Shown here piece after piece: positions 31,390-43,901 of a DNA stretch of 64,000 bases (position 1 is its first letter; every line of letters starts with the position of its first letter). The translations under genes were made by a program, and so were the position numbers. Origin of the DNA: Opitutia bacterium (GTDB taxonomy: Bacteria; Verrucomicrobiota; Verrucomicrobiia; Opitutales; Opitutaceae); the NCBI GenBank assembly GCA_016187945.1, contig JACPIT010000002.1, positions 1-64,000 of the forward strand, read 5' to 3'. The notes below the pieces were generated by a model. That model was given only the letters and a program-made list of their open reading frames with translations. It was not told the origin of the DNA and ran no database searches.

Positions 31390-34300
31390 TCACTGCGCCG
31401 CCGGGCTCGCGAGTGCGCCCGCCACCGCGCGCGCCAGGTCGGCCATGCTGGGCGGCTTGCTCAGCACGGCGGCGATGTGCAGGCGCGACGACTCGGCGCG
31501 TCGATCGGCTTCGAGATGCCCGGAGACGATGAGGATCGGCAGCGTCGCATTCATGTCGCGCACTTGCCGCGCGAGTTCAAAGCCGGTCATCCCCGGCATC
31601 GCATAGTCCACGACCAGCAAATCGAAACCTGTCGGTTGCGCGGCGAATTTGAGCAGCGCTTCGGCGGGATTGCCGACCGCGGTGACTTGATAACCGAGAA
31701 ACTGGAGCATGTCCGCGAGCGCGGCCCGCGGGCCGGGATCGTCGTCGACGAAGAGAATGCGCTGGTGCTGGCCGCGCGGGATGTCCGCCGCGAGCGCGGG
31801 CAGCGCGTCGGCGGCCGCCGGCTGTTCTCCGAGGGCGCGGAAATAGAGCTCGAACGTCGTGCCGGCGCCGGGCGTGCTGCGCACGAGGATCGCGCCGCCA
31901 TGGTCGCGCACGATGCCGTGCACGACGGCGAGGCCGAGCCCCGTGCCGCGTCCGGCTTCCTTCGTCGTGAAGAACGGGTCGAAAATGCGCTGGGCCACGT
32001 CGGGCGTCATGCCGCAACCGTCGTCGGTGACGGTCAGCACCACCGCGAGGCCCGCGGGCAGCTCGGGGTTCTCGGATTGTTGGGCGGCGGTGACCTCGCG
32101 TCGTTCGAGTCGCACGCCGATGCGTCCGCCGTCGGCCGGCAGTGCCTGCCAGGCGTTCGTGCAGAGGTTCATCATCACCTGGTGGAGCTGGGTGGCGTCG
32201 CCGCGGATCGGCGGACAGGCGCGGTCGAGGTGCGCGTCGATCTGCACCATGGGCGGCAGCGTGGAGCCGAGGAGGCGCAGGGCTTCCTCGACGACGCGGA
32301 CGAGGTCCACCGCCCCGCGTTCGCCTTCGCTGCGGCGCGAGAAGGCGAGGATCTGTTGCACGAGGCGCTTGGCACGCGCGCCGCCGCTGGCGATGTTCTC
32401 GAGCCAGCGCTGCGCCGCATGCTGTCCGGGTAACTCGAGGCGGATGAGCTCGGCCGAGCCGAGGATGCCGGTGAGGAGATTGTTGAAATCGTGGGCGATG
32501 CCGCCGGCGAGCGTGCCGAGCGATTCCATCTTCTGCGTCTGGCGCAGGCGCGCTTCGGCGACGCGCTGCGCGGTGATGTCCTGGATCGAGTTCAGCGTGT
32601 AGCGCTGGCCGCCGATCTCGATGAGGCTGCCGCTGAACAGCGCGGAAAACACCTCGCCGTTCAGGCGGCGCATGCGGGTCTCGTAGCTCGCGACGTGACC
32701 GTTGTCCCGGAGCATTTTCAGATAGCGGTCGCGCTCGGCCTGATCGACCCACGCGGCCAGTTCCAGCGACGTGCGGCCGAGCACCGCAGCCCGCGGCGAG
32801 CCGAAGCCGCGCTCGGCCGCGGAGTTGACCTCGACGATTTTGCCGTCGGGAAACGAGAGGAGGAACATCATCACCGGGCTCTCCTCGAACACGGCGTGAA
32901 ACCGCTGCTCGCCCTCGCGCAGGGCGCGCTCCGTGCGCTTGAGGTGCGTGACGTCGATGAAGGTGTTGAGCGAATACCCGCGACCCGCGATTTGCACGAG
33001 GCGACTATGCATGAGCAGCTCCAGCCGCGCGCCGCTGCGGTGCCGCATGCCGACCTCCATCTCCTCGAGCCGGCCGGTTTCCGCGAGCACGCCGAGCCAG
33101 CGCTCGCGCTTTTCCTCGTCGGACCACAGTCCGGCTTCGAGCACGTGCCGGCCGATGCACTCTTCGCGTGTGTAGCCGAACGCCGTCGTGACAGCCGTGT
33201 TGACGTCGGCGATGATGCCCTCGGGAAACGACGCGAGCACGACCGGCACGGGGCCGTGGTCGAACAAACCGCGGAACTTTTCCTCGCTCTCGCGCAGGGC
33301 CGTGGTCTTCGCGTCGGCCTCGCGCACGGCGTCCTCGTAGATCGTGGCGTTGCGCAGCGCCAGGGCCGAGAGCTGCGCGAGGAGGCGCCCCTTTTCGACG
33401 TCATCGGCGGTGAACGGCTGATCGGGCTGGAAGCGGCAGACGCCGAGCACGCCGATCGCACGGTCTTCGTGGAGGATGGGGAAAACCGCGGCGGCGCGCA
33501 CGCCGGCTTCGCTGTAGGCGGCGACGGCGCCGTCGAGCGTGCGGTAGTTATGCGCGACGGCCGGCTGGCATGTCTCGATGGCGCGCCACGCGAGCACCGC
33601 CTCGCGTCCGACGGGTTTGAGGCCCTCCTCGGGCACGGTGCCGCACCACGCGCGCGGCACGAGCAACTCGTTTTCGAGGAGCGCCACTTCGGCCGACGGC
33701 GCATCGAGCAGCGTTGCCGCGCGATCGACGAGTCCGCGCAACACCGCCGCCGTGCCGCGGCGCGCGAGCAGGTCGAGCGCGGTTTCATTCACCGCCGAGT
33801 AGAGCTCGGCCTGGCGCCCGGCGGCGAATTCCGAGGCTTTCATCGCCGTCAGGTCGACGTTGATGCCGATGATGCGCAGCGCCCGGCCGTCCGCGTCGCG
33901 CTCGACGCAGCGGCCGCGGCTGCGCACCCACACGATCGAGCCGTCGTCGCGACGGTAGCGGTGCTCGACGACGTATTCGTCGCTGTGCCCGAGTTCGATG
34001 CGTTCGAGTGCGGCGAGCACGCGCGGGCGTTCCTCCTCGGGCACCTTGAGCAGGAGCGCCTGGAGCGTGATTCGCGTCTCGCCCGGCGGCGCGCCGATGA
34101 ATTGCGCCCAGCGCTCGTCGAGAAACACGCTGCGGTCGCGCAGGTCGGCGTCCCACAGGGCGCTGCCGGACGCCGCGAGCGCGAGACGGAGCTGCTCTTC
34201 GCGACGCTGGAGATTTAGCTCGGCGATCTTGCGCGTCTGGATGTCGGCGTGCGTGCCGGACAGCCGCAGCGCGCGACCGTCGGGGCCGCGCTCGACGATG

Positions 34301-35457
34301 CGGCCGAGCGAGCGCACCCAGCGCCACTCGCCCGACTTGGCGCGGAAGCGCACTTCGATCTCGTAGCGTTGCGCGTCGCCCTTGAGGTGGGCGCGCGTGG
34401 CGGCCCTGGCGCGCGGGAGGTCGTCGGGATGCAGCAGGTTGTCCCAACCCGCGGCCGTCTGGGGAATCTCGCCCGGAGCGTAGCCGAGGATGTCGACGCA
34501 CAACGACGTGAAGTCGACCGTGTCCGCGGCGGCGTTCCATTCCCACGTGCCGAGCTGGCTGCCGTCGAGCGCGCGGCGGAGTTGGGCGCGGCTTTCCTGC
34601 AACTCGCGCTCGCGTTCGCGCAGCTCCGCGGTGCGGGCGGCGACCTGCCGCTCGAGTTCCCCGCGGGAGAAGGCCGTGGAGCGGAGCTGGTCGATCGTGT
34701 CGTTGACGGCGCGCGCGAGGGCGCCGAGTTCGTCGTCGTCGGTGTAGGTGAAGCCGACGTGGAGGCGTTCGCCGCGGTTGACGGAGCGGGCCTCGCGCTC
34801 GATGCGGCGGAGGGGCCGGAGAAATTGCCGGTTGATCGCGTAGAGGCAGATGCCGATCGCGCCGACGAGGACGAGCGAGCCGGCGACCTGGCGGTTGCGC
34901 TCGCGGTGGATTTGGGCGGCGAGCCGCTGTTCGCCGCGGGTGCGGAAGTCCGCGAGTTGCCGCTGCACGGTTTGGAGCGAAGGGACAACATCGCCGCCGA
35001 GCGCGGGTGCGAGCACGTGCGCAGCGACGCGCGCGGCGTCCTCCTCGGAAACGAGGGCGCGAAAACTGCGCCAGTGGCGCTCGAATTCCGCCGTCGCGCT
35101 CTGGAGAACGACGACGGACGCCGCGAGCGGATCGCCCGAGGGCGCCGTGCGCATCTCGCGGTCGGACTGGATTTCGTCGAGCGAATGTCGCAGGAGCGTG
35201 ATCGCGCGTTCGCCGGTGACGCCGAGTTCGTTCCATTCGCGAGTGCCGGGCACCGACGGACGCGCGAGCGCGGCGGCCAGCGCCGTGAGTTGATCGCCGG
35301 TCGCGCGCAGCGAGACGCGTTCGGCGTTCAGGAACGCGCTGCGGCTCGCTTGTTCGGCTTCCCACGAGTTCCAACGCACGAGGTCGATCGCGGCGTCCCC
35401 GACGATCAACAGCACCGCGCCTGCCGTCAGGAGATGGATCTTAGTGGCGATTTTCAC
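31390..35457 (-). CDS. Membrane hybrid histidine kinase with HAMP, four PAS, GAF and receiver
   Basis: The 1355-residue protein starts at GTG 35457 (GGAAGG six bases upstream; a longer frame would run into repeat copy A). Order: TM1 (4-24), periplasmic helical domain, TM2 (about 190-212), HAMP (to ~262), PAS (295-410), PAS (420-540), GAF (555-705), PAS (725-845), PAS (850-970), HisKA with the phospho-His near 988 (GIAHDFNN), HATPase (to ~1220, [11 protein letters not shown]), and receiver (1235-1350, phospho-Asp in LLVVDYAMP). It senses an external cue plus several internal ones and feeds its own receiver. No dedicated output regulator adjoins it. The HisKA core closely resembles that of the kinase at 5230-7146. 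Confidence 0.92.
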   Translation of the reverse strand: MKIATKIHLLTAGAVLLIVGDAAIDLVRWNSWEAEQASRSAFLNAERVSLRATGDQLTALAAALARPSVPGTREWNELGVTGERAITLLRHSLDEIQSDREMRTAPSGDPLAASVVVLQSATAEFERHWRSFRALVSEEDAARVAAHVLAPALGGDVVPSLQTVQRQLADFRTRGEQRLAAQIHRERNRQVAGSLVLVGAIGICLYAINRQFLRPLRRIEREARSVNRGERLHVGFTYTDDDELGALARAVNDTIDQLRSTAFSRGELERQVAARTAELRERERELQESRAQLRRALDGSQLGTWEWNAAADTVDFTSLCVDILGYAPGEIPQTAAGWDNLLHPDDLPRARAATRAHLKGDAQRYEIEVRFRAKSGEWRWVRSLGRIVERGPDGRALRLSGTHADIQTRKIAELNLQRREEQLRLALAASGSALWDADLRDRSVFLDERWAQFIGAPPGETRITLQALLLKVPEEERPRVLAALERIELGHSDEYVVEHRYRRDDGSIVWVRSRGRCVERDADGRALRIIGINVDLTAMKASEFAAGRQAELYSAVNETALDLLARRGTAAVLRGLVDRAATLLDAPSAEVALLENELLVPRAWCGTVPEEGLKPVGREAVLAWRAIETCQPAVAHNYRTLDGAVAAYSEAGVRAAAVFPILHEDRAIGVLGVCRFQPDQPFTADDVEKGRLLAQLSALALRNATIYEDAVREADAKTTALRESEEKFRGLFDHGPVPVVLASFPEGIIADVNTAVTTAFGYTREECIGRHVLEAGLWSDEEKRERWLGVLAETGRLEEMEVGMRHRSGARLELLMHSRLVQIAGRGYSLNTFIDVTHLKRTERALREGEQRFHAVFEESPVMMFLLSFPDGKIVEVNSAAERGFGSPRAAVLGRTSLELAAWVDQAERDRYLKMLRDNGHVASYETRMRRLNGEVFSALFSGSLIEIGGQRYTLNSIQDITAQRVAEARLRQTQKMESLGTLAGGIAHDFNNLLTGILGSAELIRLELPGQHAAQRWLENIASGGARAKRLVQQILAFSRRSEGERGAVDLVRVVEEALRLLGSTLPPMVQIDAHLDRACPPIRGDATQLHQVMMNLCTNAWQALPADGGRIGVRLERREVTAAQQSENPELPAGLAVVLTVTDDGCGMTPDVAQRIFDPFFTTKEAGRGTGLGLAVVHGIVRDHGGAILVRSTPGAGTTFELYFRALGEQPAAADALPALAADIPRGQHQRILFVDDDPGPRAALADMLQFLGYQVTAVGNPAEALLKFAAQPTGFDLLVVDYAMPGMTGFELARQVRDMNATLPILIVSGHLEADRRAESSRLHIAAVLSKPPSMADLARAVAGALASPAAQ

Positions 35458-35558
35458 GCGGCACCTTCCCCTCGGAAGTCGACACCAACGTTGCCGAACT
35501 TGAGCGCGAAGACTAGGCGAAAGTCCCGGGCCGGCTCGGAGGCCGGCGCCGATTGCGC

Positions 35559-35707
35559 CTCGCGTATCGGACTGACAGGTGGGGCGCACCGCCAAGGCAT
35601 CGCCCTCGTCGCCGGCCCGGTGCGCCGCGAACGTGCTATCGTCCTCGCGGCGGAGCGGGCCGCTCCGCCCTACCTTCCGCTTCGTGCGCGTCAGCCGGTT
35701 GCGCGAA
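35559..35707. repeat. Palindromic element copy A
   Basis: About 149 bases, very similar to copy B (46758-46908) in the same orientation. It starts CCTCGCGTATCGGACTGAC, contains the hairpins GGCGCACC...GGTGCGCC and GGCGGAGCGG/CCGCTCCGCC followed by CTAC, then CTTCCGCTTCGTG, and ends GCGTCAGCCGGTTGCGCG. It lies between the big kinase gene and the chemoreceptor gene. Confidence 0.8.
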
Positions 35708-35789: not shown

Positions 35790-37319
35790 TCAGGCGTCGA
35801 TGAAATGCGGCTCGCGCGCCGCAGCGGCGGTGCGCGGCCGCGCGACGTGAGCGTGCGGGGTGCTGGGCGGAGAAATTTTCTGCGCGCGGTCGCCGGCTTT
35901 GCCGCCGGCGAGGGCTTGGAGTTGAGTCACGGCGTCCTTGAGCATCGCGGCCTGGCTGTTGAGTTCCTCGGCGGCGGCGGCGGTTTCCTCGGCGCTGCCG
36001 GCGTTGCCTTGCGTGACCTTGTCCATCTGCGACACGGCGTTGGTGACCTGGCCGATGCCCTGGCTTTGCTCGGCCGAGGCGCGGGCGATCTCGGTCACGA
36101 TGTCGTCGAGTTCGCGGATGTGTTTCTGGATCGCGGCGAAATTCGTGGCCACCTCGCTGCTGATCTCGACGCCCTGCTTCGACTGCGCGACGGAGGCGTC
36201 GATCTTCTCGGCGGTTTCCTTGGCGGCTTGGGCGGAGCGCTGGGCGAGGGCGCGGACTTCCTCGGCGACGACGGCGAAACCGGCGCCGGCCTCGCCCGCG
36301 CGGGCAGCTTCGACGGCGGCGTTGAGGGCGAGGATGTTGGTTTGAAACGCGATTTCGTCGATCGTCTTGAGGATTTTCGTGATGCCCTCGCTGGCGGATT
36401 TGATGCCCTCCATCGCGTGCTGCATCGTCTGCATGCGATCGGCGCCGGCGTCGGCGGCGTGGCGGGCGCGGGCGGCGGTGTCCTTGGCCTGCGTGGCGCT
36501 CTCGGCATTGCGCTTGGTCATGCCGGACATTTGTTCGAGCGAGGCGCTGGTTTCTTCGAGCGCGGCGGCTTGCTGGCTGGAGCCTTCGGCGAGCGTCTGG
36601 CTCGAGGAGGAAATCTGGCTGGCGGCGCTGGCGGTCTGCTGCGCGCCGGCGTCGATCTGGCCGATGGCGGCGCCGAGCGCGCGGCTCGTGCTGCGGGCGA
36701 TCCACACGGCGATCGCCAGGCTCAACACGAGTGCGATGACGAGGCCGGCGCCGATGGAGAGATTGGCCCGGGCGACGTGGGCGGTGATGCTCTGGCCGGC
36801 CCGCTCGCCGTTCGTGCGGTTGTAGTCGAGCAAGGCGTGGATGCTCCGGTCGAGCGGGGCATAAGCGGGTTCGAGGCGCTCGCGCAGCAGTTGCGCGGTG
36901 GCGGGATCGTTCTTGTTGCTGGCGGCGATGACCTCGCGGAAGGCACCGACGTAGCCGGTGCGGGCGGCCTTCAGCGCGTCGAAGAGTTCACGATCGAGCG
37001 GCGTGCGGATCGTCGGTTCGTATTTCGCGAGCAACGCGTCGATCTCGGCGACGTTCTTCTCGATCTCGGCGAACGCGGCCTGTTTGTCGGCGGCGGTGGT
37101 GGCCAGCACGTGGCGCTGGGTGTGGATGTAGTTTTCTTGAACGACGTTCGAGATCAGCGCGACGGTGGCCATGCCGGGCAGGCAATCGCCGGTGATGTCG
37201 GAGGCGTCGGCATCGATGCGGACGAGGTTGATGCGCGCGAAGATGCCGAGCGCGAGCACGACCGCGATAATGGCGGAGAAGCCAAGCGCGATCCGCTGGG
37301 CGACAGTGAGTTTGTTCAT
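35790..37319 (-). CDS. Methyl-accepting chemotaxis protein (4HB type)
   Basis: The 509-residue receptor starts at ATG 37319. TM1 is about 8-28, the periplasmic four-helix-bundle domain about 30-185, and TM2 188-208. There is no evident full HAMP; the protein runs straight into the signalling coiled coil. The hairpin tip is [20 protein letters not shown] followed by [20 protein letters not shown] (322-360). The long frame open to 39323 overlaps the next receptor in another frame and is rejected. The last residues EPHFIDA resemble the DAHFIDS end of the neighbouring receptor. A sigma28-like promoter (37426-37400) lies 74 bases upstream. Ligand unknown. Confidence 0.93.
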
Positions 37320-37399
37320 GAGGACGGGAGGAGAGGTGAACGCCGGGGGTAACGGCGCGCCCGGTGCGCGGCGGAGCACCGCGCATCGGACCTGACTTC

Positions 37400-37468: not shown

Positions 37469-39982
37469 TCAACTGTCGATAAAATGGGCGTCGTTGTTCC
37501 GGCTCGAGTGAGCGGCGACGGCCGGAGCGCGGCCGAGCTGCGGCTTGACGGCGCGGGCCGGCGCTCGCGGAGCGTCGCTGGTGGGTTTGGCGGCGGCCTT
37601 CGCGCGCGGCGCCACGACGGCCGCACCGGCGTGCTGCACGGCGCCGACGAGGTGACGGAGCTCGACGACGGCGTCGTTCAGCGTGACGGCTTGCGCGCTC
37701 AGCTCCTCGGCGGCGGCGGCGGTTTCCTCGGCGTTGCCGGCGTTGGATTGCGTGACTTTGTCCATCTGCGAGATCGCGGTGTTCACCTGCGAGATGCCGC
37801 GCGTCTGCTCCTGCGAGGCGTTGGCGATCTCGCCGACGAGGGTGTCGACCTGCCGGGCGCGCTCGACGATTTGCTGAAGCGAGGCGGCGACCTTCGCGGA
37901 GATTTCGACGCCGTGCTGGCTCTTGCTGACGGAGTCTTCGATCTTCGCCGCGGTTTCCTTGGCCGCTTCGGCGGAGCGCTGGGCGAGGGCGCGGACTTCC
38001 TCGGCGACGACGGCGAAACCGGCGCCGGCCTCGCCCGCGCGGGCGGCTTCGACGGCGGCGTTGAGGGCGAGGATGTTCGTTTGGAAGGCGATCTCGTCGA
38101 TCGTCTTCACGATCTTCGCGATCTCGCCGGAAGAGTGTTTGATGGCGGCCATGGCGGATTTCATCTCGTCCATGTCGGTCGAGCCGGCGTCGGCGGCCGA
38201 GCGGGTTTGCGCGGCGAGCTCCTTGGCCTGGCCGGCGCTGTCGGAATTGCGTTTCGTCATCGAGGCCATCTCTTCGATCGACGCGGAGGTTTCCTCGAGC
38301 GAGGCGGCCTGTTCGCTGGCGCCTTCGGCGAGCGACTGGCTGGAGGAGGATACCTGACCGGAGGCCGTGGCGATCTGCTCGGCGCCGTCGCCGACGGTGC
38401 GCGTGATCGTCGTGAGCGGGCCGACGATGCTGCGGGCGATGATGAAGGAGAACGCGCCGCCGACGAGGAACGCGCCGGCGCCGATCCAGACGATGAGCGA
38501 CTGGGTGTAGAGGAGTTTCGCCTGCACGAGCGGGCCGAGGTGGTTTTGGTCGGCGAGGAGTTCCTCGGTGAGGATCTCGAGTTCGTGGTCGATGGTGGAT
38601 CCGATGGCGCCCATCTGGCTGTTGAGCTCCCGCGTGCTGCTGTCGCGGCGGGCCTGCACGCTCTTGACGAGCTGGCCGTGCAACTCGGCGTGGCGTTTGA
38701 CCTCGGTTTCGATGCGGGAGAATGCCTGCTTGTGGTTGGCGTCGTCGAAGGAATCGAAGGCGTGGCGGACGAGTTCGAGCGTGGCGTTGGTGCGCGCGTG
38801 GTAACGCTCGATGGATTCCTGGGTGCGGAAGATCACGAGATCCTTCGCCGCGATGCGCATTTCGAGGAAAGTCGACTGCACTTGCTCGACCAGGACGCTG
38901 TGGCGGGCGTCGGTGCGATACTCGGTGAAGCCGAGCAGCGAGGAATGCGACGATTCGTAGCTGATCGTGGCTAGCACGCCGAGGATGACGAGCACCGTGG
39001 CGAAGCCGGCGGCGATGCGGCGACCGACGGTCCAGGACTTCATGCCGGTGCGGGAAAACGCATACACGCCCCACAACGCGAGGGCGACGAGCACGACGCC
39101 GACGCCGACGGACCAAAGGCTGACGGCGGTCGCGGGTGCAGCGGCGGCGTCCGTCGCGTGACCGGTGGACGCGGTGGCGTTGTCGTGCGAGGAAGCGGCA
39201 GGCGCGGCGTGGGACTCGGCGGCGCCCGCGTGGGCGTCGGTCGCGGCGTGTTCCCCGCCGTGCTCGCCGGCGCCGCCGGTGTAGGCGAGGAGGCGCGCGA
39301 GTTCGGGGTGTTCGCCCTTCCACTGCACCTGGCCGGACGCCAGGTCGTAGACGGCGCCGACGACCTTGAGCTTGCCGGCTTTCACGAGGTCGCGGACGGT
39401 TGCGCTGTTTTCAAAGAGGTTGTCGATCGATTGCCAGACGTTGGCTTCGACGGCTTTTGCGATCAGCGGCGCGCCGGCGAGACCGGGGTTCGCGGCTTTG
39501 GTTTTTTCGACGGCGGGGACGATGGTGTCGACGAGTTGCGGGATGTTGCCGTGGAGCTCCGCGCCCTCGGCGACGGCCTTCACGGCGCCGCAAGAACTGT
39601 GGCCGAGCACGACGAGCAGCGCGGTGCCGAGGTGGCCGGCACCGTATTCGATCGAGCCGATCTCGTCGGTCTTGGCGACGTTGCCGGCGACGCGCACGAC
39701 GAAGAGATCGCCGAGGCCCTGGTCGAAGATCGCTTCGGCGGGCACGCGCGAGTCGGAGCACGTGAGCACGGTGGCGAAGGGCGACTGGCCCTGCGCGACC
39801 TCGGTGCGGCGATCGGCCGATTGATTGGGATGCTCGGCGTGGCCGGACGTGAAGCGCGTGTTGCCGTCGGTGAGTCGCTGGAGCGCATCGGCGGGCGAGA
39901 CGGGAGAAGCCGCCGTGGCGAGGACGGCGGCGGCGAGTGCGCTGGCGAGCGCAGCGAGGCGGGTGAGGCGGGCGATGGCCAT
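37469..39982 (-). CDS. Secreted beta-carbonic anhydrase fused to a methyl-accepting chemotaxis protein
   Basis: One uninterrupted 837-residue frame. Residues 1-26 form a Sec signal peptide. Residues 30-235 are a beta-carbonic anhydrase with Cys75 and the Asp77-Arg79 dyad (LTCSDSRVP) and His128 and Cys131 (LGHSSCGAV), the complete zinc site. Residues 238-280 are an Ala/His-rich linker with six histidines. TM 288-308 leads to a short cytoplasmic turn. From Met314 the sequence is a whole chemoreceptor: TM 322-342, periplasmic helical domain 345-495, TM 496-516, and signalling hairpin tip 630-668 ([20 protein letters not shown]). The anhydrase would face the periplasm. It should interconvert CO2 and bicarbonate next to the sensor, suggesting CO2, bicarbonate or pH taxis. 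It lies between a receiver gene and the second receptor, near cheW and cheA. An internal start at 39043 is possible, but no ribosome binding site is seen. Confidence 0.93.
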
Positions 39983-40186: not shown

Positions 40187-40828
40187 TCACTCGCCCAGCG
40201 CGCGCCGCAAGCGCTGGCGGAGCTGGCCGAGCTCGCGCGAGTGGAAACTGTCCTTCGTGCGCTCGATCACGCGGATCGCATCCGCGAGTGCGTCGCGCAG
40301 ATCGCCCATCGGGGCACGCGTGGAAGGATCGGCTTCGAGCAGTGGCCAGAGCTCCTGCAATTCGCGCAGATTCCGCGCCAGCGCCGCCTCGTCGCCGGCA
40401 TCGCCTTGCGCCAGGGCCGCGCGCAGGGCCTCGACACAGGCCTTGCCGCGGCGGCGGGCGCGCGCGGTGTCCCGCAGCGTCGTGAGAATGGTTTCCAACT
40501 CGGAAAAATCCGGCGGCTTCACCAGATAGGCGGCGACGTGGAGATTCGCGGCCTTGATGGCGTTGTCGATGCGGGGCGAGCCGGTCAGCAGCACGACTTG
40601 CAACGCGGGGTGCTGGCGCGCGACGCGCTCGACCCACGCGAGGTTTTCGTTGCCGGGCATGTGGATGTCGCTCAGCAACACGTCGAATTCCTGCCCGGTC
40701 AGCGCGGCATCGGCCGCTTCCGTCGTTTCCACGTAGATCGTCTGCGCGCCCTTGTGCTCGAGCCAGGTGCGCACGCTCAGGCCGGCGATGGGGTCGTCTT
40801 CGACGAAGAGGATGCGTGCGTCCTTCAT
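40187..40828 (-). CDS. Receiver-domain protein with helical C-terminal extension
   Basis: The 213-residue protein starts at ATG 40828. The receiver (1-125) is complete: FVEDD, phospho-Asp54 in LLSDIHMPG, LLTGSP, and Lys in YLVKPPD. The remaining ~90 residues are helical and charged (ACVEALRAALAQGDAGDEAA, RDALADAIRVIERTKDSFHS) and match no output domain I know. The extension may be a protein-interaction module. It lies between cheW (131 bases upstream) and the carbonic anhydrase receptor (204 bases downstream) on the same strand. Confidence 0.82.
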   Translation of the reverse strand: MKDARILFVEDDPIAGLSVRTWLEHKGAQTIYVETTEAADAALTGQEFDVLLSDIHMPGNENLAWVERVARQHPALQVVLLTGSPRIDNAIKAANLHVAAYLVKPPDFSELETILTTLRDTARARRRGKACVEALRAALAQGDAGDEAALARNLRELQELWPLLEADPSTRAPMGDLRDALADAIRVIERTKDSFHSRELGQLRQRLRRALGE

Positions 40829-40959
40829 GGTCGACGTGAACTTGGCCCAACCACGCGACGGCGACAAGCCCCGGCTGGCCGCGACGTCGAAAAACGGCCG
40901 GCCGCGCGACGGCGCTGGGCCGGGGCGCGGCGGAAAACGGGCGGCGGACGCGCGTCCGA

Positions 40960-41460
40960 TCAGACGTTCGAGGCGATCGTCTGCATCGTCTCGGGTGCGA
41001 CGACGCGATCGATGTCGAGCAACGTCTTCACCTGGCCTTTGACCTTGGCCATGCCGAGCAGGTAGGTCGTGTCGACGCGGGTGCCGAACTCGGGCGTGGG
41101 CTCGATTTCCTCGGCGGGGAGGTGGACGACTTCCTCGACGGAATCGACGATCAGGCCCATCTGCACGAGGGTGTCGTTGGGCAGCTTGACCTGGACGACG
41201 ACGATGCAGGTGCGCTCGGCGAACTCGGCTTTCAGGCCGAACTTCACGCGGAGGTCGACCACCGGGATGACGCGGCCGCGGAGATTGATCACGCCCTTGA
41301 CGAAATCCGGCATCTGCGGGACCGGCGTGATTTTTTGCATACGGATGATTTCGCGAACCTTCAGCACCGCGATGCCGTAGGCTTCGTTGTCGAGGACGAC
41401 GGTCAGGTATTTGCCGGCGTGCTTGTTTTGGGTGGAGGCGGCCGAGGCGGGAGAGCTCAT
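40960..41460 (-). CDS. cheW: Chemotaxis coupling protein CheW
   Basis: The 166-residue protein has the CheW fold throughout: KYLTVVLDNEAYGIAVLKVR, REIIRMQKITPVPQMPDFVK, GVINLRGRVIPVVDLRVKFG, MGLIVDSVEEVVHLPAEEIE, YLLGMAKVKGQVKTLLDIDR. CheW links receptors to CheA in the signalling array. The short N-terminal extension (SSPASAASTQNKH) is disordered. It is divergent from cheA across a 269-base gap holding two sigma28-like promoters, and heads the minus-strand run of receiver and receptor genes. Confidence 0.96.
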   Translation of the reverse strand: MSSPASAASTQNKHAGKYLTVVLDNEAYGIAVLKVREIIRMQKITPVPQMPDFVKGVINLRGRVIPVVDLRVKFGLKAEFAERTCIVVVQVKLPNDTLVQMGLIVDSVEEVVHLPAEEIEPTPEFGTRVDTTYLLGMAKVKGQVKTLLDIDRVVAPETMQTIASNV

Positions 41461-41586
41461 GAGTTTAGTGAATCGAGGAAATGCGGGCGTGGGGGGAGCG
41501 GCCCGGTCGCAGGGAGCGCGGCACGCCGGTTTTCACCGGAGAACTGCGCGGCGCGGCGATCGAAACCGACACGGCAGGCGTTTCTC

Positions 41587-41613
41587 TCATCGGCACCGTC
41601 AGGCGGAACTTTT
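41587..41613 (-). promoter_or_regulatory. sigma28-like promoter for cheW
   Basis: Minus strand: AAAA (41613-41610), 15 bases, GCCGATGA (41594-41587). Ten of 12 positions match; it gives a leader of about 120 bases. Confidence 0.6.
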
Positions 41614-41674
41614 GCGTTTTCTTGCCGGATCGGCCCGCCGGCGCCGCGCCGGACGGCGGACGAGAGTTGAGAGC

Positions 41675-41701
41675 TAAGGTTTTCCGCCAACGCGCCGATG
41701 A
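41675..41701 (+). promoter_or_regulatory. sigma28-like promoter for cheA
   Basis: Plus strand: TAAG (41675-41678), 15 bases, GCCGATGA (41694-41701). Ten of 12 positions match. The cheA start codon is about 22 bases downstream of the predicted transcript start. Confidence 0.65.
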
Positions 41702-41729
41702 CAGAGCAAGCGGATCCAATCCTTTTCCA

Positions 41730-43901
41730 ATGCCCCTCGCTCCGGAATCCTTCCAAGCGCTCGATGACTCGCTGAGTCGTTTGGCGGCCGAATCCATTCT
41801 CGCCCAAGCCGGGCGCGACGACGGTCTCATCCCGTCCTACAGTCTGCTCGGCGAAATGCGCGAGCGTTGCACCGACGAGCCGGCGCTGCGCGACGCGATC
41901 GCGGCCGTGCACGGCCTCATCGACAAGCGCCTCGACGCCGCGCAGCCCTTCGACGAGCCGACGCTGGCCGAATTGCGCCGCTTGATCGGCTGGCTGCCCG
42001 AGGCGCTCGAAGCCGCCAAGGCCGGCCGCGCGCCCGCGCCGTTTGCCGGCGAAACCGCCGCGCCCGCCGCTCCCGCCGCCGCCGCGTCCGCCGCCGAGGC
42101 GGAACACGCGCCGGCCGACGTGATGCTCGAGCTGCACTTCGCCGAAAACCAGGAACTGCTCACCGAGTTCTACGCCGAAGCGGTCGACCACCTGCAACAG
42201 ATCGAGGCGGCGCTCCTCGTCCTCGACCAGCGGCCGGACGACCCGGAGGCGCTGAACTCGATCTTCCGCTCGTTTCACACGATCAAGGGCAACGCCGGCT
42301 TCCTCGGCCTCGTGCCGATGCAGACCCTCGCCCACGAAGTCGAGTCGCTGCTCGATCTCGCGCGCAACCGCGAGCTCCGCCTCACGCCCGCGATCATCAC
42401 GGAAATCCTCCGCAGTCGCGACGCGTTGCAACAGCTCACGCAGCAGATCGCCATGGCGCTCGAAAAAGGGCATCTGCCGAGCACGATCGTCCCCGTCAGC
42501 CATCTCGTCGTCGCCGTGAAAGCGCTCGCGCGCGGCGATGCGCCCACGGCTCCGGCTGCTCCGACTCCGGTCGCTCCGAAACCCGCGCCCGCCGCCGCGC
42601 CCGTCGTTCCGATCGCGTCCGAGGCGCCGGCTGCTGCAACAGCCGCGGTTGCGCCCGCGCCGGAGACCGCGCCCGCCGCGGCCACGACTTCCGCCGCCAA
42701 CGCCATCGAGAACCAAGCTTCCGCCAAAGCCACCGCGGGCGGCCAGACCGTGCGCGTCAACACCGAGAAACTCGACTCGCTCATGGATGTCGTCGGCGAA
42801 CTCGTGATCGTGCAGAGCCAGCTCATCGAGTCCGCGCGCGGCATTTGCGACGACGGCTCGCCGATGCAACGCAACGTCGCGCAGCTTTCCCGGATCGCCA
42901 AGGAACTCCAGCACACCGCGATGTCGCTGCGGATGATTCCGATCAAGCCGACGTTCCAGAAAATGGAGCGCCTCTCGCGCGACCTCGCGCGGAATTTCGG
43001 CAAGAAGGTCCATTTCCAGGTCAGCGGCGAAGACACCGAGCTCGACCGCACCGTCGTCGAGGAAATTGCCGATCCGATGGTCCACATGGTCCGCAACGCG
43101 CTCGACCACGGCCTCGAGTTGCCGGACGTGCGCGTCGCCTCCGGCAAGTCCGAGCAGGGCACGGTGCACCTCAGCGCCTACCACCAGGGCAGCAACATCG
43201 TCATCGAGCTCAAGGACGACGGCCGCGGCATCGATCCCGACAAGATTTTCAAGAAGGCCGTCGAAAAGGGCATCCTCGCGCCGAACGCCAGCCTCACCCG
43301 CGAGGAATGCTACGCGCTGATCTTCGCGCCGGGTTTCTCCACCGCCGAAAAAGTCACCGCCGTCTCCGGCCGTGGCGTCGGCATGGATGTCGTGAAACGC
43401 AACATCGAGAAGCTGCGCGGCAAGATCGAGATCACCTCCGAGGTGGGGAAAGGCTCGACGTTCAAGATCAAGCTCCCGCTCACGATGGCGATCATCGACG
43501 GCCTCGTCGTGCGCGTCGGTGCCGACAAATTCATCCTGCCGAGCACCTCCGTGCAGATGGCGATGCGCCCGACGAAGGACTCGATCACCACCGTGCACGG
43601 CACCGGCGAAGTGCTCGAACTGCGCGGCAAAATTCTCCCGTTGCACCGCCTGCACCGCCGTTTCGGCATCCCGGCCGACGCCACGCAACCGTGGGACGGC
43701 ATCGTCGTCATCGTCGAGCACTCGGGCCGCGTTTCGGCGCTCCTCGTCGACGAGATGGTGAGCAAGCAGGAGGTCGTGATCAAGAATCTCGGCGCGTTCA
43801 TGCAAGGCCTCCCCGGTGTGGCCGGTGGCGCCATCCTCGGCGACGGCAACATCGCCCTCATCCTCGACCCGGCGTCGCTGCTTCAGGCTGCCGCCGCCTA
43901 A
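41730..43901 (+). CDS. cheA: Chemotaxis histidine kinase CheA
   Basis: The 723-residue protein starts at ATG 41730, just behind the promoter. An unfamiliar helical domain (1-125) comes first. The HPt domain follows (about 130-235) with phospho-His183 in FRSFHTIKGNAGFLG. A Pro/Ala/Thr linker (270-335) replaces a clear P2 domain. Then come the dimerisation helices (VRVNTEKLDSLMDVVGELVI), the HATPase (HMVRNALDHGLE, DDGRGID, GRGVGMDVVKRNIE, GSTFKIKLP) and a CheW-like regulatory domain (580-720). It phosphorylates receiver proteins in response to receptors. The extra N-terminal domain, pushing the HPt histidine from ~48 to 183, is unusual. The HDOD gene follows after 35 bases. Confidence 0.95.
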   Translation: MPLAPESFQALDDSLSRLAAESILAQAGRDDGLIPSYSLLGEMRERCTDEPALRDAIAAVHGLIDKRLDAAQPFDEPTLAELRRLIGWLPEALEAAKAGRAPAPFAGETAAPAAPAAAASAAEAEHAPADVMLELHFAENQELLTEFYAEAVDHLQQIEAALLVLDQRPDDPEALNSIFRSFHTIKGNAGFLGLVPMQTLAHEVESLLDLARNRELRLTPAIITEILRSRDALQQLTQQIAMALEKGHLPSTIVPVSHLVVAVKALARGDAPTAPAAPTPVAPKPAPAAAPVVPIASEAPAAATAAVAPAPETAPAAATTSAANAIENQASAKATAGGQTVRVNTEKLDSLMDVVGELVIVQSQLIESARGICDDGSPMQRNVAQLSRIAKELQHTAMSLRMIPIKPTFQKMERLSRDLARNFGKKVHFQVSGEDTELDRTVVEEIADPMVHMVRNALDHGLELPDVRVASGKSEQGTVHLSAYHQGSNIVIELKDDGRGIDPDKIFKKAVEKGILAPNASLTREECYALIFAPGFSTAEKVTAVSGRGVGMDVVKRNIEKLRGKIEITSEVGKGSTFKIKLPLTMAIIDGLVVRVGADKFILPSTSVQMAMRPTKDSITTVHGTGEVLELRGKILPLHRLHRRFGIPADATQPWDGIVVIVEHSGRVSALLVDEMVSKQEVVIKNLGAFMQGLPGVAGGAILGDGNIALILDPASLLQAAAA

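Follow-up and report, generated by a model that had tools for sequence, protein, structure and literature searches.

What does a carbonic anhydrase do when it forms a single protein with a chemoreceptor? This question is raised by a locus in the window, that is, the whole stretch of 64,000 nucleotides of bacterial DNA analyzed here. An original prediction, made from the DNA letters, had placed a β-carbonic anhydrase (CA) fused in frame to a methyl-accepting chemotaxis protein (MCP) at positions 37469-39982. Its coordinates proved right, and the strand, which it did not give, is the minus strand. The locus encodes one protein of 837 amino acids (P0001) in a single uninterrupted open frame, with the ATG at 39982 and the stop codon at 37469-37471. 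From the N to the C terminus, the protein consists of a hydrophobic N terminus, the CA, a linker rich in alanine and histidine, a first membrane helix (TM1), a basic loop with Met314, a second membrane helix (TM2), a helical bundle, a third membrane helix (TM3), and the MCP hub. These parts are located as follows:

37469-39982, minus strand: whole gene of the CA-chemoreceptor fusion (open frame with Pfam Pro_CA and MCPsignal matches, uninterrupted in nine further genomes)
39905-39982, minus strand: probable signal peptide, residues 1-26 (hydrophobic N terminus by hydropathy)
39278-39898, minus strand: β-carbonic anhydrase, residues 29-235 (Pro_CA at 71-219; nearest solved structure Rv3588c)
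39746-39760, minus strand: catalytic motif C75-S-D77-S-R79 (C, D, and R invariant in 10 of 10 fusions)
39590-39601, minus strand: zinc ligands H128 and C131 in the motif H-S-S-C (invariant in 10 of 10 fusions)
39131-39277, minus strand: Ala/His-rich linker, residues 236-284, probably disordered (30% identity; pLDDT below 50 for 236-287)
39059-39130, minus strand: TM1, residues about 285-308, an extra helix that would link the periplasmic CA to the receptor's cytoplasmic start (all 10 fusions show the hydropathy peak)
38954-39058, minus strand: short basic, putatively cytoplasmic loop with the apparent relic start Met314, then TM2, residues about 323-343 (alignment and hydropathy)
38507-38950, minus strand: putative periplasmic helical bundle, residues 345-492 (four predicted helices)
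38915-38920, minus strand: invariant Tyr355-Arg356 in the bundle (F..YR in 12 of 12 aligned receptors)
38435-38506, minus strand: TM3, residues about 493-516 (hydropathy; inside a continuous predicted helix, 447-648)
37751-38221, minus strand: MCP signaling domain, residues 588-744 (Pfam PF00015, 158.2 bits)

Pfam recognized both halves of the window protein, with 138.7 bits for Pro_CA (residues 71-219; cut-off 25.7) and 158.2 bits for MCPsignal (PF00015, residues 588-744; cut-off 34.6), and both domains exceeded their curated cut-offs in all 10 uninterrupted fusions described below. Hydropathy peaks corresponding to TM2 (about 323-341) and TM3 (about 493-515) flank the predicted helical bundle, from which we infer a periplasmic sensor held between two membrane helices. 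The extra TM1 is consistent with this topology, as it is needed for the C terminus of a periplasmic CA to reach the cytoplasmic start of the receptor. An AlphaFold2 model built with nine rows was usable in parts only (mean pLDDT 62.5, pTM 0.32). It predicted the four helices of the bundle with a pLDDT of 87-95 across residues 361-470, falling to 72-83 at either end, while the linker (residues 236-287) stayed below 50 and much of the first half of the CA below 60. Foldseek matched the receptor part to the Escherichia coli chemotaxis core signaling unit (8c5v_I, E 2.9e-7). No Pfam match to a HAMP domain was found after TM3 in the window protein, and the predicted helix is continuous over residues 447-648, with no break of the HAMP kind; this domain is usual in MCPs, though not universal. 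Likewise, 4HB_MCP_1 (cut-off 27 bits) gave no match to the window protein down to 0.001, or to the bundle alone down to E 1. In the nine other fusions, one passed (L054, 36.7 bits), one fell short at 25.5 bits (P0004), and the rest had no match down to 0.001. Weak CHASE3 matches to the bundle lay below the cut-off.

The methionine at position 314, kept in 9 of the 10 fusions, appears to be a vestige of an ordinary MCP's start, judging from the starts of unfused paralogs. It is possible that initiation at this internal codon still yields a separate ordinary MCP. A ribosome-binding-like sequence was not consistently present before Met314 among the fusions; the main ATG lacks a clear one as well, so this absence counts for little.

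Uninterrupted fusions were found in at least 10 of the 252 genomes of the family, spread over six genera, by a search with the CA part followed by domain scans of the DNA of the matches listed (G000, G001, G007, G008, G250, G229, G231, G126, G266, and G214). Within the genus, at least 4 of 13 genomes carry the fusion among the matches listed, and a search of 57 relatives returned full-length matches with 59-66% identity in three other genomes of that genus. Among the matches listed, no fusion came from G005, a genome of the same genus rated 100% complete, or from most genomes of the family. The fusion of G266 runs off a contig end and is missing its first residues.

A missed stop or an assembly error in relatives was looked for, and the frame was uninterrupted in nine further genomes; the same open frame in 10 different genomes rules out both. 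That the gene is an artefact of assembly or gene calling, or is decaying, is hardly credible, even if an eleventh fusion, in G263, which begins at a contig end, contains an in-frame stop, and the hub of G126 departs near its end, running in the same frame into UPF0029/DUF1949. Against these two cases stand the ten different genomes without a stop in the frame and the low rate of nonsynonymous change (dN) in the CA, and also in the hub except in the pair with G126. The UPF0029/DUF1949 run-on of G126 (L050, 263-2764) could represent a second fusion, a frameshift, or an assembly join.

Outside the family, no confirmed fusion was present among the matches listed for samples of 387 phylum genomes and 372 order genomes, which overlap each other and the family. 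At least 17 genomes outside the family contain CA frames longer than 600 amino acids. Twelve of these frames were examined (L159-L168, L172, and L173; those of G439, G448, G765, G848, and G855 were left out) and showed no MCP in frame or nearby. These twelve were therefore rejected as further fusions, and the four scanned whole with Pfam (L159, L160, L162, and L164) are SulP-CA proteins; in L165, the last 218 residues alone were scanned and gave a Pro_CA match. A contig scan with two narrow peptide patterns returned three loci (L013, L014, and L015), of which L013 and L014 show no MCP. Our search of open-licence papers found no description of a chemoreceptor with a carbonic anhydrase; a published domain-architecture table could still list one.

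Is the fused CA likely to work as an enzyme? C75 and H128 lie at the positions given in the original prediction, and together with D77, R79, and C131, they are invariant in all 10 fusions. The mean pairwise identity among the fusions is 67% for the CA and 67% for the hub (G126 excluded because its C terminus departs), as compared to 30% for the linker, which varies from 32 to 49 amino acids in length, and 32% for the bundle. In four pairs, the CA showed a dN of 0.05-0.14 with a dS of 0.54-0.87, and the bundle a dN of 0.43-1.03 with a dS of 0.89-1.33, values that come from a simple method and are near saturation. Judged by these rates, the CA is under purifying selection, and its strict conservation makes use as an enzyme the most likely explanation.

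The nearest solved structure is that of Mycobacterium tuberculosis Rv3588c (E 2.3e-37 by sequence), which Foldseek also retrieved with the CA part (E 1.1e-9, rmsd about 10, in a region where the model has low to middling confidence). Because some hydrolases with the β-CA fold use COS or CS2, the enzyme might act on another small molecule of this kind, with the receptor following that compound or its product. A weak sequence match to the CS2 hydrolase 3ten (E 6e-4) speaks for such a substrate; we regard it as very improbable given the far closer match to the carbonic anhydrase Rv3588c and the full set of CA catalytic residues. The genome of the window also carries a second Pro_CA gene without such a hydrophobic N terminus, and stand-alone CAs of the secreted type are common in the family. 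Six of the latter (L052, L053, L058, L059, L060, and L061) end in short His tails like the fusion linker, possibly a metal-holding tail.

The fusion lies in a chemotaxis cluster, most of which recurs in G007 and part of it in G008. Its neighbors in the window are as follows:

35790-37352, minus strand: ordinary 4HB chemoreceptor (Pfam 4HB_MCP_1 and MCPsignal), with its Met a few residues inside the stretch given
40187-40867, minus strand: response-regulator receiver protein, upstream of the fusion (Pfam Response_reg)
40960-41460, minus strand: CheW (Pfam CheW)
41481-43901, plus strand: CheA, with Hpt, H-kinase_dim, HATPase_c, and CheW domains (Pfam)

In the wide-flanked loci from other genera (L048, L049, and L055), neither CheA nor CheW was found near the fusion. 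Each of the 10 genomes whose fusion is uninterrupted has matches to FlhA and CheR. Downstream of the two chemoreceptors, the window contains a long multidomain sensor kinase frame (31390-35595, minus strand), and related kinase frames neighbor several CA or receptor loci. The fusion and the neighboring MCP also share an HFID(S/A) ending at the C terminus (37472-37486 and 35793-35807, respectively), perhaps a docking tail for CheR/CheB.

The fused receptor belongs to a family that includes members without the enzyme. The matches listed for a profile of the TM1-TM3 region included the 11 fused receptors and, with scores above 140 bits, six CA-less relatives; the next receptor match below these six, in G213, reached 95 bits. 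Four of the CA-less receptors keep the hydrophobic N terminus and TM1 (G236, G016, G103, and G090), and two lack TM1 as well (G018 and G061). In a receptor tree that took in 8 of 17 other unfused MCPs, all 17 clade members were split from these eight (100/100). The CA-less receptor of G236 stood next to the fused one of G229 (100/99), and those of G103 and G090 were grouped with G126, G229, and G236 (100/99). This suggests that the CA was lost more than once. The G236 locus (L108, 2693-4507), from a genome without a FlhA match, retains what appear to be the first CA residues, a His-containing linker, and TM1, and the body of the CA is missing. FlhA was found in the three other CA-less genomes with TM1, and loss of the flagella was rejected as a general rule for loss of the CA.

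Because these four relatives keep the N terminus, TM1, and the receptor but lack the CA, the receptor probably works without it and senses through its own bundle, the CA being an accessory. An F..YR motif in the bundle is invariant in all 12 aligned receptors, 10 of them carrying the CA and 2 lacking it. Since it is also found in CA-less receptors, Tyr355-Arg356 provides no evidence of bicarbonate binding.

The same relatives bear on the idea that the CA domain itself is the sensor, with substrate, product, or pH altering its conformation or dimer state and the change being passed to the receptor. The CA is the best conserved periplasmic part of the protein, and some β-CAs have pH- and bicarbonate-dependent states. 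We nevertheless consider it distinctly unlikely. A little conserved linker of 32-49 residues, predicted to be disordered and followed by a separate membrane helix, makes stiff coupling improbable, and the CA-less receptors persist. In a comparison by hand, moreover, the Trp39 of the noncatalytic bicarbonate site in Haemophilus influenzae appears to be replaced by Val72. The original proposal of one protein with its CA on the periplasmic side of a taxis receptor is supported by the open frame, the inferred topology, and the conservation in six genera, with one correction: the enzyme is not a substitute for the sensor domain. The linker and its own membrane helix lead to a receptor with its own putative periplasmic bundle, which four relatives retain without the enzyme. 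It is therefore more probable that the CA converts the signal locally than that it does the sensing.

Further evidence came from CAs that are separate from, and adjacent to, chemoreceptors. Of 51 distinct nonfused secreted-type CA genes, 5 have an MCP gene as their immediate same-strand neighbor, the two frames overlapping or lying no more than 29 bases apart: L063 (G114), L139 (G250), L148 (G108), L154 (G066), and L176 (G581). L139 was chosen because its neighbor had already been noticed, and leaving it out gives 4 of 50; frames above 480 amino acids were omitted, the near-identical L013 and L014 were counted as two, and 47 of the 51 genes were flanked by 1 kb or more of sequence on each side. 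The genomes with these pairs have 6-11 MCP matches each, and by our estimate, fewer than one such neighbor would be expected by chance, for loci that are partly related and include L139, picked because it was noticed.

L148 and L154 are close kin in the CA tree, and both adjoin a CheW gene. L176 (1-6501) is a CheW-MCP-CA-CheB cluster in a genome related at the phylum level only, and its CA has a His-rich tail; a short piece of the MCP sequence is repeated after this CA. In the CA tree, built from 67 of 78 sequences after 11 that were long or of the cytosolic type had been omitted, four of the five paired CAs fell on a different branch from the fused CAs, and the CA of G581 in the fused half. 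The receptors of those four pairs gave HBM- or 4HB-like sensor matches, with L139 (HBM) the only one above the Pfam cut-off. Thus, a CA and a chemoreceptor have probably been brought together more than once. A single origin of all fusions was not established: the CA tree needs three changes, a single clade of the 11 fusions (G263 included) is not rejected (p-AU 0.14), and the receptor tree, much of it unresolved within the clade, places CA-less members among the fused ones.

The pairs also bear on a reading in which the receptor is a mere anchor: a periplasmic CA would be fixed to the membrane, or to the receptor array, so as to supply CO2 or buffer pH, with no input to the sensor. Two points speak for it: the family has many stand-alone CAs of the secreted type, and CAs are fused to SulP transporters in the phylum (all four long frames scanned whole). 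We think this reading unlikely: a full MCP with a conserved hub would be a costly anchor, FlhA and CheR occur in every genome with an uninterrupted fusion, and secreted CAs are paired in operon-like loci with separate MCPs that supply no anchor.

We therefore return to the reading of the CA as a local converter, in which the tethered enzyme would bring CO2 into balance with bicarbonate and protons next to the receptor; the receptor would read the product and so direct the flagella. We favor it with modest confidence. The CA domain, whose family and catalytic residues are established, would sit on a flexible leash outside the inner membrane, where it would rapidly convert CO2 to bicarbonate and H+, and back, in the immediate vicinity of the receptor. 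Reading of bicarbonate or protons would fall to the periplasmic bundle of the receptor itself, and the signal would pass through TM3 and the MCP hub, via the CheW/CheA machinery encoded in the cluster, to the flagella. Uncatalyzed, the CO2 reaction is far slower than the chemotaxis memory of a swimming cell, which compares conditions over a few seconds. With the enzyme, a change in CO2 could therefore register as bicarbonate or pH before that comparison is over. Both β-CAs and MCPs work as dimers, which makes the stoichiometry of the two halves compatible. Given the loose leash and the CA-less relatives, such a tethered converter is more plausible than a CA that signals by a change in shape. 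CO2, bicarbonate, and pH are reported to equilibrate within minutes on their own and nearly instantaneously with CA (PMC3085406). Several observations count against the mechanism. The four receptors of the same clade without the CA show that the receptor can dispense with it, and three of their genomes have FlhA. Conservation of the bundle is poor apart from a few residues, Tyr355-Arg356 among them. Among the matches listed, most genomes of the family, G005 included, gave no fusion, and neither CheA nor CheW was found close to it in L048, L049, and L055.

Taxis to CO2, bicarbonate, or protons, which the original prediction had suggested, would follow from such a mechanism. This suggestion is strengthened by the purifying selection on the CA, the occurrence of FlhA and CheR in all 10 fusion genomes, and the separate CA-MCP gene pairs elsewhere. 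More broadly, and with slightly less than even confidence, we propose a class of enzyme-coupled chemoreceptors, in which a tethered external catalytic domain turns CO2 into ions to be read by the receptor; flagellated members of the family would thereby steer by CO2, and the pairing would have arisen at least one more time as separate neighboring genes, from different CA and receptor lineages. To our knowledge, bacterial receptors for CO2 itself are poorly known. If the proposal is correct, a membrane receptor can come to respond to a gas through chemistry carried out on the spot instead of through a cofactor that binds the gas. Animals and fungi do something similar with CA and bicarbonate-regulated cyclases, whereas here a single molecule would suffice. 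The CA-less and split versions would provide natural controls.

The fusion can be compared with several known systems. It resembles MCPs with a 4HB sensor in its MCPsignal hub, in the arrangement of a periplasmic helical bundle between TM2 and TM3, and in its place beside CheW and CheA. It differs from them by an added N-terminal enzyme, a linker, and a third membrane helix, by the lack of a recognized HAMP domain, and, in the window protein, by not reaching the 4HB cut-off. With the secreted β-carbonic anhydrases (Pro_CA; Rv3588c), it shares the family and the catalytic residues, and His-rich tails are also found at the ends of several closely related secreted CAs from the family; in contrast to them, the CA of the fusion is a covalent part of a chemoreceptor. 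The SulP-CA fusions from other families of the phylum likewise join a β-CA to a membrane protein. However, their CA lies at the C terminus of a transporter (Sulfate_transp), and they have no signaling domain. TlpA of Helicobacter pylori, a receptor for arginine, bicarbonate, and acid, is a chemoreceptor with a reported response to bicarbonate (PMC5245789, PMC8406319), but its sensor is a dCache domain, and no enzyme is reported for it. Bicarbonate is reported as an attractant acting through TlpA, where the stimulus may be either the ion or the pH (PMC5245789). A further parallel is the CO2 sensing of animals and fungi, in which CA makes bicarbonate from CO2 and a sensor reads the bicarbonate (PMC3085406). 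There, the enzyme and the sensor are separate proteins in other organisms, and the output is that of a cyclase, whereas in the fusion described here, both would act within one chemoreceptor.
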